Below are positions 15,868 through 53,383 of a stretch of DNA of 64,000 bases, piece by piece. The notes under the pieces are model-generated. The model did no database searches. It was not told where the DNA came from and saw nothing but the letters and a program-made list of their open reading frames with translations. Source of the stretch: Moorella humiferrea. GTDB lineage: Bacteria; Bacillota; DSM-521; Neomoorellales; Neomoorellaceae. The position numbers and the translations under genes were made by a program. The first letter of the stretch is position 1. Each line of letters opens with the position of its first letter. Location: positions 284,001-348,000 of the forward strand of contig NZ_CP136419.1 of assembly GCF_039233145.1 (NCBI RefSeq). Direction: 5' to 3'.

Positions 15868-15897
15868 TTAAGGCGAAAATAGAAAAAATTCCCCGAA

Positions 15898-15978
15898 AAA
15901 AGGCAAACCTGTCGAAAGGCAGGGGCGCAAAGCTACAGGGTCTAAAGCCCGGTAAGGGCCAGGACAGCCAGTTGCCGC
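15898..15978 (+). ncRNA. Cyclic di-GMP-I (GEMM) riboswitch
   Basis: The conserved GEMM core is readable: AGGCAAACC, a stem capped by a GAAA tetraloop (TCGAAAGG), GGGGCGCAAAGC, GGGTCTAAAGCCC, and the closing GCCAGTTGCC strand that pairs with GGCAA. This matches the GNRA tetraloop/receptor design of class I. It lies between a sigma-A promoter and an intrinsic terminator in front of a chemoreceptor, so c-di-GMP probably controls receptor expression by termination. The direction (on or off) cannot be read safely. Confidence 0.9.
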
Positions 15979-15989
15979 GGGTGGAACGG

Positions 15990-32007: not shown

Positions 32008-32763
32008 GTGAGTGAGGTTGCCAACAAAAAGCCAAAAGTTGTAGTAAAAAATTTAACAAAAAAATTCGGCGAGCTTCTTGTTTTAAATGATATTTCTTTT
32101 AGTGTTTATGAGGGAGAATTTCTTTGCATAGTAGGTCCTACTGGATGTGGCAAGACAACCTTTTTAAACTGCCTATCAAAATTATATGCGCCAACGAAAG
32201 GGAACATTTATATTGATGGTGAAGTGGCCGATCCCAAAAAGCACAATATTTCTTTCGTATTCCAGGAACCATCTTGTATGCCTTGGCGTACTGTTAAACA
32301 GAATGTTGCATATGGTATGGAGATAAAAAAAGTCCCAAAGGAAGAATTAGAAGAACGTTTGGAGAAGATTTTGGAACTGGTAGGCTTGACTAGTTGTGCT
32401 GACCTATATCCCAATCAGATATCCGCCAGTATGGAGCAGCGGGTTGCTATTGCCAGGGCTTTTGTAGTCAATCCTGATATCTTATTAATGGATGAACCCT
32501 ACGGCCAGCTTGATATAAAGTTGCGTTATTATTTGGAAGACGAGCTTATCCGTATATGGAAGGAGCTAAAATCTACTGTTATTTTTGTAACCCATAATAT
32601 TGAGGAAGCAGTCTACCTCGCTGAACGCATTCTTGTACTCACTAATAAACCCACGACTATCAAAGAGGAGGTGATAGTTGATCTTCCGCGCCCAAGGGAC
32701 TTTAGAGACCCGCAATTTGTGGCCATTAGAAAGAGGGTAACGGATCTTATTAAATGGTGGTAA
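32008..32763 (+). CDS. ABC transporter ATPase, NitT/TauT type, with degenerate signature motif
   Basis: 251 aa. Walker A GPTGCGKTT, Walker B ILLMDEPYGQLD and the H-loop VTHNIEEAV are intact. The ABC signature reads ISASMEQR instead of LSGGMKQR as found in the second ATPase of this cluster (35633-36409). The start is GTG 32008 behind GGGGTG. With two permease genes and another ATPase downstream, this is probably one half of a heterodimeric nucleotide-binding pair with one weakened site. Likely taurine or sulfonate import. Confidence 0.85.
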   Translation: MSEVANKKPKVVVKNLTKKFGELLVLNDISFSVYEGEFLCIVGPTGCGKTTFLNCLSKLYAPTKGNIYIDGEVADPKKHNISFVFQEPSCMPWRTVKQNVAYGMEIKKVPKEELEERLEKILELVGLTSCADLYPNQISASMEQRVAIARAFVVNPDILLMDEPYGQLDIKLRYYLEDELIRIWKELKSTVIFVTHNIEEAVYLAERILVLTNKPTTIKEEVIVDLPRPRDFRDPQFVAIRKRVTDLIKWW

Positions 32764-32839
32764 GAGGGTAAGTAATGGATAGCAGGAGAGGATATTTATT
32801 ATACTTGAATGTGAATTTAATAACAGGAGGAGAGAAGTT

Positions 32840-33955
32840 ATGATAAAAAAGATATTTAAATTGATGTGTCTGGGGTTATTTTTAATTCTTGCTGTAATAT
32901 TATTTGCTGGCTGTGGTGGAAGCCAACAAAAGCAGAGTAACCAACAACAAGAAAATAAGTTGACAGTCGTACGTGTTAGCCATCAACCAGAATTTGAATC
33001 ATTTTTAACATATAATGCTATCAAAGAAGGATTAGATAAGAAAAATGGCCTTGAGCTGAAGATGGTTTACTTTGATTCTGGTATGCCCCAGATTGAAGCC
33101 CTTCCCGCCAACCAGTGGGATGTGGGAGCTGCTGGTGCTACACCGGCTATAATGGCTGCCTTGCGTTATGGTACCTATTCAATTGGTATTGGTGACGATG
33201 AATCGATGGCCAATGTTGTCATGGTAAGACCTGATAGCCCAATACTTAAGGTTAAAGGAGCAAATCCAAAATATCCCGATATATATGGTTCCGCTGAGTT
33301 GGTAAAAGGTAAAACTATTCTTGTAACTACTGTTTCCGGTGGTCACTATTGTTTGTCTAGATATTTAAAGGCCCTTGGACTGACAGAAGCTGATGTAAAA
33401 ATACAGAATTTAGAACAGGCGCAGGCAGTTGCTGCTTTTGAGTCAGGTGCTGGAGACATGGTTGTATTATGGGCACCTTTTACCTATACCGGACTTCGTA
33501 AAGGATGGAAGGTAGTAGCTACTGCCCAACAGGTAGATGCTATTTTCCCAATCATTATAATGGCTAACAAGAAATTTGCTGATGAGCATCCGGACCTGGT
33601 AGTGAAATTCCTTGATATTTACTTCCAGCAGATTGACAAAATAAAGAAGGAAGGTAAAGGGTTAGCAGATCTTTATAAAGCTTTCCTCAACGATTGGGGT
33701 GGACTGGATATATCTAAAGAAGATGCGGCAATGGATATAGAGCTCCACCCGGTGTATGACTTGAAAGAGCAATTAGCAATGTTTGATAGCTCTAACGGGC
33801 CTAGTAAGATGGAGAAATTAATGGGAGATATAGCCGAATTCTTTGCCTCTCAAGGCAAATTCACCATGGAAGAAAAAGATAAAGTAATGAAGAGTGGTTT
33901 TATTACCGATAAGTTTATAAAAGAGCTGGCAAAGCAAAAAGGGTTAATTAAATAA
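32840..33955 (+). CDS. ABC transporter substrate-binding lipoprotein, TauA/SsuA-like
   Basis: 371 aa. Lipoprotein signal peptide with lipobox LFAGC, the lipidated cysteine being C25, then a Gln/Ser-rich linker and an NMT1/TauA-like periplasmic-binding fold (VVRVSHQPEFESFLTYNAIKEG, AAGATPAIMAALRYG, AFESGAGDMVVLWAPF). It should capture taurine or a related sulfonate at the outer face of the membrane. GGAGGAG precedes the ATG. It lies between the two ABC ATPases of the cluster, followed by two permeases. Confidence 0.87.
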   Translation: MIKKIFKLMCLGLFLILAVILFAGCGGSQQKQSNQQQENKLTVVRVSHQPEFESFLTYNAIKEGLDKKNGLELKMVYFDSGMPQIEALPANQWDVGAAGATPAIMAALRYGTYSIGIGDDESMANVVMVRPDSPILKVKGANPKYPDIYGSAELVKGKTILVTTVSGGHYCLSRYLKALGLTEADVKIQNLEQAQAVAAFESGAGDMVVLWAPFTYTGLRKGWKVVATAQQVDAIFPIIIMANKKFADEHPDLVVKFLDIYFQQIDKIKKEGKGLADLYKAFLNDWGGLDISKEDAAMDIELHPVYDLKEQLAMFDSSNGPSKMEKLMGDIAEFFASQGKFTMEEKDKVMKSGFITDKFIKELAKQKGLIK

Positions 33956-34028
33956 AAAGTAAGAGCCATATAGGGTAGCGCCTTTAAACAAAGGCGCTAC
34001 CCTGTATAAAGGGGATTGGAGGGTTAAA

Positions 34029-34817
34029 ATGGTAAATCAAGAAAACAATTCTGGGGTTGTAAAGTATTTGCCTGTAATTAGTATTATTTCAGTAATTATT
34101 CTGTGGGAGCTACTTGTTGATACCGGCATAATTCCAAATACCTTACTTGCCACCCCTTTACAAGTGATAAAATTATTTATCTATAAATTGAATCATCCTG
34201 ATCCTGATGGCGCTCTTTTGATTACACATGTACTTGTTAGCGTCAGTGAGGCTTTGTTGGGATATGTTTTAGCTCTTGCTATCGGAATACCTTTAGGGCT
34301 TTTAATGGGTTGGTTTGTAGTGGCAGAAGGGCTAGCGCGGCCAATATTTGAAATGATAAGACCAATTCCTCCGGTTGCCTGGATACCGCTAGCAATATTC
34401 TGGTTTGGCATTGGGATGTCTGGCAAAGTGTTTATTATTTGGGCTTCAGGAATAGTTCCTTGCGTAATTAACTCCTTTGTAGGTGTGAAAATGACAGCAC
34501 CTGTTTATATTCGCATGGCCCGCACCTATGGGGCAAGCAACTGGGAGATTTTTAAGACGGTCTGCGTTCCTTCAGCCTTACCTATGGTTTTTGGGGGATT
34601 GCAGGTTGCTCTTGCCGCTTCCTGGACTGCTCTGGTAGCTGCTGAACTTATAGCTGCTGATACAGGTTTGGGCTTTATGATTACAATGGGCCGGAGATTA
34701 TTAATGCCGGATATGATTATCCTTGGCATGATTATGGTTGGCCTTACAGGCTTTATATTGGGCATCATTATCGATAAGATTGAGAAGAAGCTAACTGCTG
34801 GTATGATAAGGAGGTAA
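34029..34817 (+). CDS. ABC transporter permease, TauC/SsuC-like (first)
   Basis: 262 aa with about six membrane segments. The cytoplasmic EAA-type loop is MARTYGASNWEIFKTVCVPSALPMVFGG. The family landmark IRPIPPVAWIPLAIFWFGIG is clear. It pairs with the second permease 6 nt downstream to form the translocation pore. GATTGGAGGG lies before the ATG. Confidence 0.88.
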   Translation: MVNQENNSGVVKYLPVISIISVIILWELLVDTGIIPNTLLATPLQVIKLFIYKLNHPDPDGALLITHVLVSVSEALLGYVLALAIGIPLGLLMGWFVVAEGLARPIFEMIRPIPPVAWIPLAIFWFGIGMSGKVFIIWASGIVPCVINSFVGVKMTAPVYIRMARTYGASNWEIFKTVCVPSALPMVFGGLQVALAASWTALVAAELIAADTGLGFMITMGRRLLMPDMIILGMIMVGLTGFILGIIIDKIEKKLTAGMIRR

Positions 34818-34823
34818 AAGCAA

Positions 34824-35654
34824 TTGAGCATGCAACTCCCGGCAGAAAGCGCCCCTGTAACTCAAGAAAAAAAAGGTATACTTTATTTTATATACAATAA
34901 GTATACTTTTTACGTAATCTCAATTGTTGGGTTTCTTTTAGTTTGGGATTTGATTGCTGTAAAACAAGTATTTGGTAATTATATGCCAAGGCCAATAGAA
35001 GTTGGGAAATATCTTATATATATGTTAACTCATCCCCTGGCCGGTAAAACCCTACCTTTACATTTATGGTTTAGTTTGAGGCGTGTTTTAATAGGTTTTG
35101 TTATTGCCGTGGTTATAGGTGTTCCCATAGGATTGGCGATGGCACTAAATAAATATATTAACGGTTTGGTCAAGCCGGTTTTCGATCTATTTAAACCAAT
35201 GCCGCCAATCTCGTGGATTTCTCTGGCAATTTTGTGGTTCGGTATTGGTGAAACCTCGAAAGTATTTATAATCATTATCGGGGCAATTGTACCGTGTGTA
35301 ATAAACTCCTTTAATGGCATACGTCTAGTTGATCCAGAGCTATATGACTGTATCAGAATGCTTGGCGCAAATCGCAGGCAGGAGTTTTTTGATCTCACGT
35401 TACCCGCTGCTTTTCCGGCCATTTTTGCTGGTATACAGATATCCCTGAGCATGGCCTGGACTACCGTACTCGCAGCCGAATTAGTTGGGGCTCGTGAAGG
35501 TATGGGCTTCCTTATCATCAACGGGATGACTTTATCGAGGCCTGCCCAGATTATCTCCGGTATGATTATAATCGCTTTAACAGCTTGGCTATTATCAGTT
35601 TTAGTAAACTGGTTGGAAAGGTGGGTTTGCCCTTGGAAAACGGAACTGGAGTAA
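34824..35654 (+). CDS. ABC transporter permease, TauC/SsuC-like (second)
   Basis: 276 aa, six predicted membrane segments. The family landmark is FKPMPPISWISLAILWFGIGE and the EAA loop is IRMLGANRRQEFFDLTLPAAFPAIFAG. The start is TTG at 34824 (TTGAGCATGCAACTC), 8 nt after AGGAGG; the ATG two codons later is an alternative. It is related to but clearly different from the first permease, so the pore is probably a heterodimer. Confidence 0.87.
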   Translation: MSMQLPAESAPVTQEKKGILYFIYNKYTFYVISIVGFLLVWDLIAVKQVFGNYMPRPIEVGKYLIYMLTHPLAGKTLPLHLWFSLRRVLIGFVIAVVIGVPIGLAMALNKYINGLVKPVFDLFKPMPPISWISLAILWFGIGETSKVFIIIIGAIVPCVINSFNGIRLVDPELYDCIRMLGANRRQEFFDLTLPAAFPAIFAGIQISLSMAWTTVLAAELVGAREGMGFLIINGMTLSRPAQIISGMIIIALTAWLLSVLVNWLERWVCPWKTELE

Positions 35655-36409
35655 AAAAGGTTAAAATAGAGTGCGTTAATATTAGCAAGTATTTCGGTGA
35701 AGGCAAAGATAGAATTCACGTCTTGGATAATATTAGCATTTCGGTATATGAAAATGAATTCATTGTGGTACTGGGACCTGGACAATCAGGAAAGACAACC
35801 TTATTAAAGATTATTGCCGGGCTTTATAAGCCTAGCAGTGGGAAGGTTTATCTAGAAGGAAAAGAAGTAGAAGGTCCAGGCCCGGATCGAGGTATTGTTT
35901 TCCAAAGGTATACCCTTTTTCCGTGGAAGACTGTTCTGGGTAATGTGGAGATAGGTCTGAAACTACGGGGTGTACCTAAAGAGGAAAGAAGGAAAATAGC
36001 CTCCTATTATATTAATCTTGTTGGTCTTAGTGGTTTTGAAAATCATTACCCACATCAGTTGAGCGGCGGCATGAAGCAGAGGGTAGGTATTGCCAGAGCA
36101 TACGCTATCAATCCTAAGGTTATGCTTCTGGACGAGCCATTTGGACAGCTTGATGCCCAGACGAGGTATTTGATGGAACAGGAGACGCAGCGTATCTGGC
36201 AACAGGAAAAAAGAACCGTGATATTTGTAACCAACAATATCGAGGAAGCTGTTTATTTGGGTGATAGGATTGTTGTTCTGGATGGAAAATTGCCCGGACG
36301 AATGAAAAAAGTTTATAAAATTGATCTTCCCAGGCCGCGTGACTATACGGACCCAGCCTTTTTAGAGCTGCGACATAGTATTACGGAGGATACTCAACTC
36401 TTGCTTTAA
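35633..36409 (+). CDS. ABC transporter ATPase, NitT/TauT type, with canonical signature
   Basis: 258 aa from TTG 35633, which has GGAAAGGTGG 8 nt upstream and overlaps the permease end by 22 nt; the open frame extends further left. Walker A is GPGQSGKTT, the signature LSGGMKQR is intact, Walker B is VMLLDEPFGQLD. The loop that is usually VTHN reads VTNNIEEAV, with the switch histidine replaced by Asn. It is the last gene of the taurine cluster. Together with 32008-32763 it would form an asymmetric ATPase pair. Confidence 0.85.
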   Translation: MENGTGVKKVKIECVNISKYFGEGKDRIHVLDNISISVYENEFIVVLGPGQSGKTTLLKIIAGLYKPSSGKVYLEGKEVEGPGPDRGIVFQRYTLFPWKTVLGNVEIGLKLRGVPKEERRKIASYYINLVGLSGFENHYPHQLSGGMKQRVGIARAYAINPKVMLLDEPFGQLDAQTRYLMEQETQRIWQQEKRTVIFVTNNIEEAVYLGDRIVVLDGKLPGRMKKVYKIDLPRPRDYTDPAFLELRHSITEDTQLLL

Positions 36410-48496: not shown

Positions 48497-48525
48497 TTGA
48501 CACTTAAAAAATGCCTATTTATAAT
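48497..48525 (+). promoter_or_regulatory. Consensus sigma-A promoter before the M-box
   Basis: TTGACA (48497-48502), 17-nt spacer, TATAAT (48520-48525): exact consensus, 12 nt before the riboswitch. Confidence 0.92.
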
Positions 48526-48537
48526 TAAACTGACAAC

Positions 48538-48690
48538 CTTCGTTAGGTGAGGCTTCTGCATAGACAAACGCCACTGCCCGGAAACGTCGAAAGACGCCAA
48601 TGGGTCAACAGGTATTACCGGCTTAAGGTTTTACCTAATGTGGCTGAGAGTTTTTCTCTAGCTATGCACGTGCCAAAGCTCAACGAGTGG
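48538..48690 (+). ncRNA. M-box (ykoK) magnesium riboswitch
   Basis: The M-box core is plain: CTTCGTTAGGTGAGGC, CACTGCCCGGAAACGTCG, AAAGACGCCAATGGGTCAAC, ATTACCGGCTTAAGG, TGGCTGAGAG, and TGCCAAAGCTCAACGAGTGG. It senses Mg2+ and normally controls magnesium transporter genes by termination. Here it stands before an ABC transporter of the anion/NitT class, which is unexpected. Confidence 0.93.
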
Positions 48691-48720
48691 GGGTTAATAG
48701 AGTGTTTTTTTGATCTCTAT

Positions 48721-48749
48721 GTCTTCCCACTTGGGAAGACTATTTTATT
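48721..48749 (+). terminator. Expression-platform terminator of the M-box
   Basis: GTCTTCCC (48721-48728) with GGGAAGAC (48733-48740), 4-nt loop, then TATTTTATT. It is 19 nt before the permease start and is presumably formed when Mg2+ is bound. Confidence 0.85.
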
Positions 48750-48767
48750 GGTTGGGAGGTGAACCCC

Positions 48768-50486
48768 GTGGCGAGGGTAACAAACCTGGCATTAACGATG
48801 ATGATGACGGCCCTTTTAACTGCTTTTGCCTATTTTGCCTATCAAGGTCATCAGGCGGTAACCCTGACGGGCGGAACGGAACTGGTCACCGGCATTGGCA
48901 TTCTGCCGTATTACGCCTTCCGGTCCTTTTTAAGAATGCTGGGCGCTTACATCCTGTCTTTAACCTTCTCCCTTATTTATGGATACAAAGCAGGTACCGA
49001 TCCCCGAGCTGAACGGTGGCTAATCCCTGTTTTGGACATCCTCCAGTCGGTGCCCATCCTGGGGTTCTTCCCGGCCGCCGTTTATTTTTTTGTTTCATTA
49101 TTTAAGGGAAGTATTCTAGGCGTGGAATTGGCTTCCATATTTCTCATATTTACCAGCCAGGCCTGGAACATGGCTTTCGGTTTTTATGAATCGCTGACGA
49201 CGATACCGCGAGACATTAAGGAAGCGACCACCGCCTATGGAGTAACGGGATGGCGCCGCTTTTTCAAACTTTACTTACCGGCGGGCATACCCAAGCTGGT
49301 GTATAACAGCATCATGTCGTGGGCCGGCGGATGGTATTTCTTGATTGCCGCTGAAATTATTGCCCTGGGACCGGTGGAGTACTCCCTTCCCGGTTTGGGC
49401 AGTTACCTTGTTCGGACCACGGAGAGGGGTGAGCTCTTCCGTACCATGGTCGGGCTTTTAACCTTAATTACCTTGATCACATTAATGAACATCTTTATAT
49501 GGCGTCCCCTTTCTACGTGGGCGGAAAACTATAAATATGAATTTGGCGGCGGCGGCAACCATATCCCGGAAGGATGGGGTTACCGCCTCTGGTGGCAGGC
49601 TCCGGGTTTCCGAGAGGTAAGGCTCATTGTCTTAAAGGTCGGAGCCTATTTATCCCAGGCTGTCGAGGGCTGGGCCTTTAAGATAGAAAAGAGAACGGCA
49701 AATTGGCATTTCTACCGGCGCATGATGACGGGCGTACGAAGTCTGATTAACTGGATTTTATTACTGCTCGTGGCCTATGCCCTCATTCGCGGTCTCATCG
49801 CCCTGTTCGGCCTTTTGTTGCTCCCCTGGCAGCCGGAAATCTTCAGCATCCCCAAAGCTATATTTTTCTCCTTTTTACGCCTGCTTGCTGCTTATTTCAT
49901 TTCCCTGGGTTGGACGCTGCCGGTGGCCATATGGATCGGGCACAACGATAAGGCTTATAAAATCATGACGCCTATATTTGAGATTTTGGCTTCCGTTCCG
50001 GCAACGGCGCTTTTTCCCGTAATTGTTTTCTTTTTGGTCACCTTAACAGGCGGAATGAACCTGGCGGCAGTGTTGCTGGTGCTTACAGGAATGCAGTGGT
50101 ACCTGCTTTTTAACCTTGTGGCCGGCGTGAAGAGTTTGCCCAGGGATTTAAAGGAAGTTGCGGCGGCCTTTGGCCTTAAAGGTTTTCATTACCTGAGTCG
50201 CGTGGTTTTACCGGCCATGGTGCCGTCATTGATTACGGGCAGCATTACCGCCTGGGGCGGTGGCTGGAATGCCTTGATTGTGGCCGAATATGTTGTGTAT
50301 GCGGGACAAACTTACACGGCCTTCGGCATTGGTTCCCTGCTGGATACGGCTACTTACGGCACCGGTAATTTTCAGGTAATATGGTTCAGTCTGATAGCCA
50401 TGATGATCACGATTGTCTTCATTAACCGTTTCTTTTGGCGGCGCCTCTATGAAGAAGCTGTAACGCGCTTTAAAATTGAGACCTAA
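48768..50486 (+). CDS. Duplicated ABC permease (COG4986-like), M-box controlled
   Basis: 572 aa from GTG 48768, 8 nt after GGGAGG; the GTG at 48759 overlaps that site. It has two fused BPD_transp_1 units, about residues 10-250 and 320-570, each with an EAA loop (ATTAYGVTGWRRFFKLYLPAGIPK and AAAFGLKGFHYLSRVVLPAMVPS). A middle cytoplasmic stretch (about 255-310) joins them. This architecture is known as an anion-type duplicated permease. No substrate-binding protein gene is adjacent. Control by a Mg2+ riboswitch suggests a link to magnesium or another divalent cation. Confidence 0.87.
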   Translation: MARVTNLALTMMMTALLTAFAYFAYQGHQAVTLTGGTELVTGIGILPYYAFRSFLRMLGAYILSLTFSLIYGYKAGTDPRAERWLIPVLDILQSVPILGFFPAAVYFFVSLFKGSILGVELASIFLIFTSQAWNMAFGFYESLTTIPRDIKEATTAYGVTGWRRFFKLYLPAGIPKLVYNSIMSWAGGWYFLIAAEIIALGPVEYSLPGLGSYLVRTTERGELFRTMVGLLTLITLITLMNIFIWRPLSTWAENYKYEFGGGGNHIPEGWGYRLWWQAPGFREVRLIVLKVGAYLSQAVEGWAFKIEKRTANWHFYRRMMTGVRSLINWILLLLVAYALIRGLIALFGLLLLPWQPEIFSIPKAIFFSFLRLLAAYFISLGWTLPVAIWIGHNDKAYKIMTPIFEILASVPATALFPVIVFFLVTLTGGMNLAAVLLVLTGMQWYLLFNLVAGVKSLPRDLKEVAAAFGLKGFHYLSRVVLPAMVPSLITGSITAWGGGWNALIVAEYVVYAGQTYTAFGIGSLLDTATYGTGNFQVIWFSLIAMMITIVFINRFFWRRLYEEAVTRFKIET

Positions 50487-50499
50487 GGAGGTGGTGGGT

Positions 50500-51252
50500 A
50501 TGGCCGTTCTTCTCGAAGTAAACCATGTTTTTAAAACCTATGTGGATGCCAATCGTTCCCTCACAGTCCTAAACGATATATCTTTTACCATAAATAAAGG
50601 AGAGTTCGTGTGCCTGGTAGGTCCGTCGGGTTCGGGCAAGAGCACCCTCTTAAGGATGGTGGTGGGATTGGACCGGCCCACGCGGGGACAGATTTTCTAC
50701 CGCGGTCGGGAAGTTAACGGCGTGATGGAAAAGATGGCCATGGTCTTCCAATCTTTTGCCTTGCTGCCGTGGTTGACGGTCATGGAAAACGTAACCCTGG
50801 GCCTGGAAGCAAAAGGCCTACCCCGGCAGGAAAGGGAAACCATCGCCAAAAAATATATCGATAAAGTTGGACTGGACGGCTTTGAAGACGCCTACCCTAG
50901 AGAACTCTCCGGCGGTATGAAACAGCGGGTAGGTATTGCGCGGGCCTTAACTATGGAGCCAGAACTATTGTGTATGGATGAGCCTTTTTCTGCCCTAGAT
51001 GCCTTTACGGCCCAGAACTTACGCGAAGAACTCCTCGACCTGTGGCTGGACGTAACCCTGCCGGTTAAATCGGTTTTAATGGTGACCCACGGTATAGAAG
51101 AGGCCGTTTTCATGGCCGACCGCATAATCGTCCTGTCCAAACGACCGGCCCGGATCCTTGCCGACGTGAAAATCGACCTGCCGCGGCCGCGCAACATGAA
51201 GGACGAAGTTTTTGCCCAGGTAACGGACAAGATATATTCCCTTTTGTTTTAA
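50500..51252 (+). CDS. ABC transporter ATPase partner of the M-box permease
   Basis: 250 aa from ATG 50500 behind AAGGAGGTGG; an upstream TTG is inside the permease gene. Walker A GPSGSGKST, signature LSGGMKQR, Walker B LLCMDEPFSALD, H-loop VTHGIEEAV. NitT/TauT/SsuB class. It lacks the extra C-terminal AAA_assoc domain present in some relatives, but a stand-alone copy of that domain is encoded at 52898-53383 beyond citrate synthase. Confidence 0.9.
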   Translation: MAVLLEVNHVFKTYVDANRSLTVLNDISFTINKGEFVCLVGPSGSGKSTLLRMVVGLDRPTRGQIFYRGREVNGVMEKMAMVFQSFALLPWLTVMENVTLGLEAKGLPRQERETIAKKYIDKVGLDGFEDAYPRELSGGMKQRVGIARALTMEPELLCMDEPFSALDAFTAQNLREELLDLWLDVTLPVKSVLMVTHGIEEAVFMADRIIVLSKRPARILADVKIDLPRPRNMKDEVFAQVTDKIYSLLF

Positions 51253-52897: not shown

Positions 52898-53383
52898 GTG
52901 GACGCCGGGCCTTTACCCCAGGTAGGCATAGGGATGGTTATCGGCCTGCTGGAGATGCTGGAGGATGTCCGGGGCAAAGAAGATATATTTAAATTAGCCG
53001 GCAGCCTTTCTATGGAACTCGATGACATCGGTCCGGTCATAGAAGCGGCGAAGGTCTTAGGTTTTATAGAAACTACCAACGGCGATATTACCTTGACCGG
53101 TCTGGGCAATCAATTATTAAACGCCAACATAGATGAGCGAAAAGAAATAGTAGCCGGCCAGTTGCAGCAGCTGCCGGCCTTTAAAGAGATTCTCGACCTG
53201 ATTAATTCCAGGCGGGGACGTCAGGTGCGACGGGAGATGGTTGTCGACCGCTTTGCTAGGAGGATGTCCGACGAAGATGCCGAAGTGCTATTTAAAACCC
53301 TAGTGGACTGGGGCAGATACGCGGGGATCATAGGTTACGATACGAAGGGAGAAATTTTATATTTAGATGAAGACGGCCCTTGA
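52898..53383 (+). CDS. Stand-alone AAA_assoc_C (COG4754-like) protein
   Basis: 161 aa from GTG 52898. MVIGLLEMLEDVRGKEDIFKLA, DDIGPVIEAAKVLGFIET, and a C-terminal FKTLVDWGRYAGIIGYD match the AAA-associated C-terminal domain normally fused to NitT/TauT-type ABC ATPases. As a free protein it may regulate or complete the M-box ABC transporter 2.4 kb away. The stop codon TGA lies within the -35 box of the following tRNA promoter. Confidence 0.75.
   Translation: MDAGPLPQVGIGMVIGLLEMLEDVRGKEDIFKLAGSLSMELDDIGPVIEAAKVLGFIETTNGDITLTGLGNQLLNANIDERKEIVAGQLQQLPAFKEILDLINSRRGRQVRREMVVDRFARRMSDEDAEVLFKTLVDWGRYAGIIGYDTKGEILYLDEDGP

Follow-up and report, generated by a model that had tools for sequence, protein, structure and literature searches.

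The window analysed here is a stretch of 64,000 nucleotides of the Moorella humiferrea genome, and positions are counted from its first letter. Its forward strand carries a promoter, an M-box leader with an intrinsic terminator and a two-gene operon encoding a fused ABC importer permease and an ATPase, flanked by a divergent glycerate kinase gene and a convergent citrate synthase gene. A sequence-only reading of this DNA had claimed a consensus promoter, a full M-box, a terminator, a fused permease and an ATPase, and all of these claims held on the strength of the promoter match, the Rfam score and the domain matches given below.

The M-box leader

The sigma-70 promoter TTGACA-17-TATAAT (48497..48525, +) agrees with the consensus at 12/12 positions. 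Shuffled sequences contain, on average, 2.8 weaker sites each; the weight of the assignment rests on the perfect match and on its position. The promoter is followed by an M-box (ykoK-type) Mg2+ riboswitch aptamer (48532..48698, +), which cmscan matches to Rfam family RF00380 over the full length of the model (positions 1-169) with 151.3 bits against a gathering score of 44 (E 1.7e-34). All 23 columns that are invariant among 32 M-boxes, a set that includes M-boxes before CorA, MgtE, Nramp and P-type ATPase genes, are present in this aptamer, the sole M-box of the 2.67 Mb genome. An aptamer of another class, a c-di-GMP-I riboswitch scoring 81.6 bits, is located elsewhere in the window (15892-15979, +).

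In the aptamer fold, the 3′ strand of the P1 pairing is CGAGTGGGGG (48684..48693, +), which is also the alternative partner of the 5′ arm of the terminator. The intrinsic terminator (48721..48750, +) consists of the 8-bp hairpin GTCTTCCC-ACTT-GGGAAGAC at 48721-48740 and a T-rich tail; its 5′ arm CTTCCCACTTG (48723-48733) doubles as one half of the antiterminator. The CGAGTGGGGG/CTTCCCACTTG duplex is assigned -15.5 kcal/mol versus about -13 kcal/mol for the terminator. The leader has an expression platform built on competition between the P1 3′ strand and the terminator, as in the usual OFF switch of M-boxes. The CGAGTGGGGG strand is unchanged in 12 leaders of the family, and a terminator-like hairpin occurs in 20 of the 22 leaders compared, with a 5′ arm able to pair with the P1 strand in most. 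That Mg2+ is the driver of this platform is inferred from the family, and Mg2+-dependent folding and gene control of this particular leader are inferred from sequence alone. Regulation of the operon by the M-box is nevertheless highly probable.

The Shine-Dalgarno sequence of the permease, GGGAGG, was read at 48754..48759 (+). An in-frame GTG at 48759, upstream of the GTG at 48768, overlaps this element, which makes 48768 the likelier start.

The permease and the ATPase

The first gene (48768..50486, +) encodes a fused two-unit ABC importer permease of 572 aa with two BPD_transp_1 stretches. The second (50500..51252, +) encodes an ABC ATPase of the NitT/TauT type, 250 aa long, with an ABC_tran domain (PF00005). 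EAA-type loops are retained in both halves of the permease (DIKEATTAYG and DLKEVAAAFG). The operon thus has two marks of a NitT/TauT-type importer, namely BPD_transp_1 membrane units that carry EAA loops and an ATPase resembling those of NitT/TauT systems. The structural model of the permease (pLDDT 88, pTM 0.85) has two type I importer membrane units, and residues 40-254 and 313-569 match OpuA, CmpB, NrtB, MetI and the fused ferric importer FbpB, with Z about 21-22 and rmsd 1.8-4.5 for the best rows. This common fold does not reveal the substrate.

By sequence, the closest solved permeases are NrtB and CmpB (nitrate and bicarbonate), and the nearest families of known substrate are carriers of nitrate, bicarbonate, sulfonates, taurine or choline/betaine. 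The closest NCBIfam models, those of SaoP/SaoA, nitrate and taurine systems, all score far below their cut-offs (e.g. 80.3 vs 295 and 234.9 vs 360); for the ATPase, the best are SaoA and the taurine and nitrate ATPases, each under its cut-off. The NitT/TauT anion label of the sequence-only reading holds as homology only. As an annotation, anion importer is the closest by homology but was rejected, with every curated model far under cut-off and homologous operons adjoining Mg2+ genes. Searching the operon proteins for homology to the CorA, MgtE and Nramp/NrmT families returned nothing, their matches being to BPD_transp_1 and ABC/AAA-type models only.

No cation-specific residues stand out in the permease. 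For each of its conserved acidic residues (120, 196 and 507) a counterpart exists in ordinary single-unit permeases of the NitT/TauT type, and for this reason the substrate cannot be read from the sequence. The same counterparts led us to reject the conserved acidic residues as candidates for separating the duplicated family from single-unit permeases.

Neither in the window nor in the scanned M-box loci is a substrate-binding protein gene adjacent to the transporter. The claim that the system lacks a binding protein therefore held for adjacency at the locus; five NMT1-type proteins are encoded elsewhere in the genome, one of them in a separate operon. A transporter without a dedicated binding protein is likely, and a binding protein borrowed from elsewhere in the genome remains possible. 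The separate operon (32008-36409, +) is a complete conventional NitT/TauT operon comprising an ATPase, a binding protein, two single-unit permeases and a second ATPase, and contrasts with the M-box operon.

Conservation and exchange at the locus

The full-length duplicated permease is found in 14/101 related genomes, and an M-box lies directly upstream of it in 14/14. M-boxes occur in 46 of the 101 genomes, the remaining ones mostly before MgtE, CorA, PRC-barrel and Nramp pairs or P-type ATPases. Chance or mis-assembly as the origin of the juxtaposition of M-box and operon is all but excluded: no support for it was found, and it is refuted by the conservation of the pair in all 14 relatives and in further lineages.

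Ten Moorella genomes, including that of the window, share the order thioesterase, glycerate kinase, M-box, permease, ATPase. Citrate synthase comes next in the window and in those Moorella genomes whose fetched stretch reaches that far. In one congener (G008), the thioesterase, glycerate kinase and citrate synthase neighbours enclose an M-box followed by CorA; in a second (G007), the M-box and CorA are followed by citrate synthase; and in a sister genus of the same family (G015), glycerate kinase is followed by an M-box and MgtE. Aligned leaders before ABC, CorA and MgtE genes of this family are nearly identical, and each genome of the exchange keeps a single M-box. G007 and G008 are only 84% and 58% complete, leaving the absence of the ABC genes elsewhere in these genomes uncertain, but the gene behind their M-box is certain. 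This in situ replacement by CorA or MgtE is the strongest single argument for equivalent function. Alternation at one locus, with one M-box per genome, is as expected if the ABC transporter is interchangeable in function with CorA and MgtE, without being proof of it.

The genome of the window has one CorA, which lacks an M-box, and therefore the ABC transporter need not be the only Mg2+ route; neither MgtE nor Nramp was found in this genome. Strict mutual exclusion with all other Mg2+ importers was considered and rejected, most ABC-bearing genomes having CorA and two having MgtE. One genome of family f23 (G084, 92% complete) has the M-box ABC operon with no CorA and no MgtE over cut-off, and here the ABC transporter may possibly be the main Mg2+ importer.

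A third component

The sequence-only reading missed a component of the system that lies outside the region it described. In the window, 1.6 kb past the ATPase and beyond the inverted citrate synthase that separates the two in Moorella, there is a gene for a stand-alone AAA_assoc_C protein (PF09821, 113 bits; 52898..53383, +), modelled as two tandem winged helices (pLDDT 93). Fold search with this protein returned winged-helix matches alone (MarR-like, FokI recognition domain) and no functional lead. When the 101 related genomes were searched whole, the set with PF09821 was exactly the set of 14 with the permease. The domain also occurs in Synechococcus elongatus. In three sister genera (G011, G014 and G017) the free gene directly follows the ATPase, the ATPases of family f23 have the domain at their end, and in most lineages the two are fused; across 80 scanned loci the domain is present at 72, either fused to the ATPase or encoded by the next gene. 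Judged by sequence, the PF09821 protein belongs to the ABC system. That it regulates the ATPase is a guess from the fusion, and no more than possible. The locus thereby has the full make-up of a PF09821-type ABC system, i.e. a tandem-TMD permease, an ATPase, a winged-helix component and no adjacent binding protein, with PF09821 as a separate gene in the window.

Such a component raises the alternative that the system does not act as an importer: it could be an ABC-type exporter or sensor, or serve as an accessory by which another Mg2+ transporter is tuned via the winged-helix protein. The lack of a binding protein and the conservation of a winged-helix component, a fold often seen in DNA binding, speak for it. 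Against it, both permease halves match type I importers and keep their EAA-type loops, the fusion of PF09821 to the ATPase, seen in most lineages, makes a free-standing transcription factor less plausible, and G084 has the ABC transporter but no CorA and no MgtE. We consider this alternative very unlikely and retain the importer reading.

Distribution and genomic neighbours

Scanning of genome contigs yielded 80 loci, with homologs in Cyanobacteria, Nitrospirota, Myxococcota, Caldisericota, Bdellovibrionota, Chloroflexota, Actinomycetota, Acidobacteriota and others. Using a covariance model built for this analysis to detect M-boxes beyond the relatives, we found one directly before the permease in Pelosinus, Lucifera, four Paenibacillus, Citrifermentans bremense (Geobacteraceae) and two more Bacillota families; in Nocardia seriolae (L185) the M-box precedes mgtC, which overlaps the permease. 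For Pelosinus, the four Paenibacillus, Citrifermentans and Nocardia, the only M-box found in the genome serves the permease operon. Mapped onto a tree of 100 permeases, the M-box label has to change 7 times, and starred branches force 6 of these changes; the tree comes from a quick search, and gain of an M-box cannot be distinguished from loss or transfer.

Many permease homologs are without an M-box, some in genomes with M-boxes elsewhere (Alicyclobacillus, Mycolicibacterium). No second permease copy was found beside the other M-boxes of Mycolicibacterium, Alicyclobacillus and similar genomes, which precede P-type ATPase, Nramp, MgtC or unidentified genes. The M-box directly before a P-type ATPase in two Mycolicibacterium loci (L224, L225) accompanies a protein 54% identical to a clostridial M-box-controlled one. 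The search for other riboswitches at M-box-free loci gave just a T-box and a SAM riboswitch, both on the opposite strand; the SAM riboswitch (Alicyclobacillus, L144:4536-4651, -) is just upstream of a permease homolog. Plasmid search with the leader retrieved other M-boxes alone, at 74-81% identity.

M-box-free permeases adjoin MgtE in five Microcoleus-type genomes, CorA in two Chloroflexota and a P-type cation ATPase in Fischerella and a Mycobacterium. In Mycolicibacterium and Amycolatopsis (L156, L164, L166), a P-type cation ATPase, mgtC, the duplicated permease and an ATPase-PF09821 fusion form an apparent operon. CorA lies upstream of the permease in one Paenibacillus and Nramp in Lucifera, the M-box being present in both as well. 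By a rough Poisson estimate, 4 clades have a CorA, MgtE or Nramp neighbour versus 0.2 expected (P 6e-5); the base rate was taken from Bacillota and the number of clades set by eye, making this an order of magnitude only. The cation specificity of the neighbouring P-type ATPases is an untested label, and MgtC is a low-Mg2+ gene but not an importer. Genomic context of this kind shows shared regulation, not substrate.

Two further alternatives bear on the cargo. The transporter could belong to a low-Mg2+ stimulon and carry a counter-ion or chelate (phosphate, citrate, sulfate or a Mg-anion complex), or else K+ or a polyamine, as an aid to the cell under low Mg2+. NrtB and CmpB as the closest solved relatives favour this view, as does the actinobacterial operon with mgtC and the P-type ATPase, MgtC illustrating that low-Mg2+ genes are not always importers. 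It is, however, unlikely, because the ABC transporter alternates at one locus with the dedicated Mg2+ importers CorA and MgtE behind a single M-box per genome and has no adjacent binding protein, which NitT/TauT anion importers need. Alternatively, the system could import another divalent metal (Mn2+, Co2+, Ni2+ or Fe2+) with its M-box being a variant that responds to the metal in question. Such a doubt also arose for M-box-controlled Nramp genes, where it had to be put to the test (PMC4072509), and a fused-permease type I ferric ion importer is among the structural matches (9j4r). Yet, within this bacterial family, the M-boxes heading the ABC genes match those heading CorA and MgtE almost letter for letter, and the neighbours in other phyla are Mg2+ genes, the Nramp of Lucifera notwithstanding. 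We regard this second alternative as very improbable.

Proposed function

A role in Mg2+ or other divalent-metal homeostasis, as the sequence-only reading had suggested, is supported by the M-box co-occurrence in every permease-bearing relative, the exchange with CorA and MgtE, the recurrence in separate lineages and the Mg2+-gene neighbours. On this comparative evidence we consider a role of the ABC transporter in Mg2+ homeostasis very likely. That Mg2+ itself is the substrate is inferred from regulation, locus exchange and context, without any transport or regulation assay, and is favoured only by a modest margin. With the same reserve, the best explanation of the locus appears to be an ABC uptake system for Mg2+ induced when Mg2+ is low, and a probable new type of Mg2+ importer, given that relatives place CorA and MgtE behind the same switch at the same locus.

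Under this proposal, plentiful Mg2+ would dock the M-box so that P1 holds CGAGTGGGGG and the terminator can fold, ending transcription. Under Mg2+ shortage, CGAGTGGGGG would instead pair with the 5′ arm of the terminator and the operon would be read. The permease, with both membrane units in one chain, and an ATPase dimer would then import Mg2+, free or complexed, without a dedicated binding protein. The winged-helix protein would act on the ATPase, most likely as a regulator, and this is the least certain step.

A bolder reading, which we lean towards without being able to press it, is that bacteria have a further class of Mg2+ importer beside CorA, MgtE, MgtA/B and NrmT: a fused-permease ABC importer with no binding protein and a PF09821 regulatory component, present in many phyla and labelled 'nitrate/sulfonate/bicarbonate transporter'. 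Should the inference prove right, a widespread family annotated as anion importer would gain a function, the part played by PF09821 could be tested and the Mg2+ importers would gain one class. Since CorA and MgtE take the place of the ABC genes at one locus, CorA doing so inside one genus, Mg2+-transport mutants that already exist offer a direct test of the hypothesis.

Comparison with known systems

We found no ABC-type Mg2+ importer in the literature searched, nor a paper that joins the M-box, the ABC architecture and PF09821 or tests the function; subscription papers, including the original M-box surveys, were outside this search. The pairing of M-box and ABC transporter is not wholly unreported. 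In Bifidobacterium breve UCC2003, an M-box was described in the 5′ UTR before the ABC transporter Bbr_0406-07, whose permease is COG4986, and metal-ion homeostasis was suggested (2017, PMC5746004). The two systems share an M-box before an ABC transporter with a duplicated COG4986 permease, the window permease being placed in COG4986 by inference from its architecture, but the description is one sentence in a transcriptome paper and gives no conservation, locus exchange or third component. The 'possible novel ABC system' of Ca. Liberibacter asiaticus (2012, PMC3688454), with substrate left open, has the same architecture of tandem-TMD permease, ATPase, PF09821 and no binding protein. It differs in having no M-box or Mg2+ link, and in that its winged-helix domain is an extension of the ATPase whereas PF09821 is free in the window.

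NrtBCD and CmpBCD contain the closest solved permeases by sequence, also among the best fold matches, but have separate permease subunits and a binding protein; in the window the permease is a single fused chain with a PF09821 partner, and no binding protein is encoded next to it. CorA and MgtE genes behind M-boxes in the same bacterial family have this M-box in common with the ABC operon and, in G007, G008 and G015, its gene neighbours as well, although their products are unrelated proteins, channels with no ATPase. The nearest precedent in reasoning is NrmT, discovered through M-boxes before Nramp-like genes and shown by complementation to import Mg2+ (PMC4072509). NrmT is a secondary carrier of a superfamily other than ABC, and its function is proven whereas that of the window transporter is inferred. 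Both are transporters from families of other reputation found behind M-boxes, and in the case of NrmT the same reasoning reached a proven Mg2+ importer.
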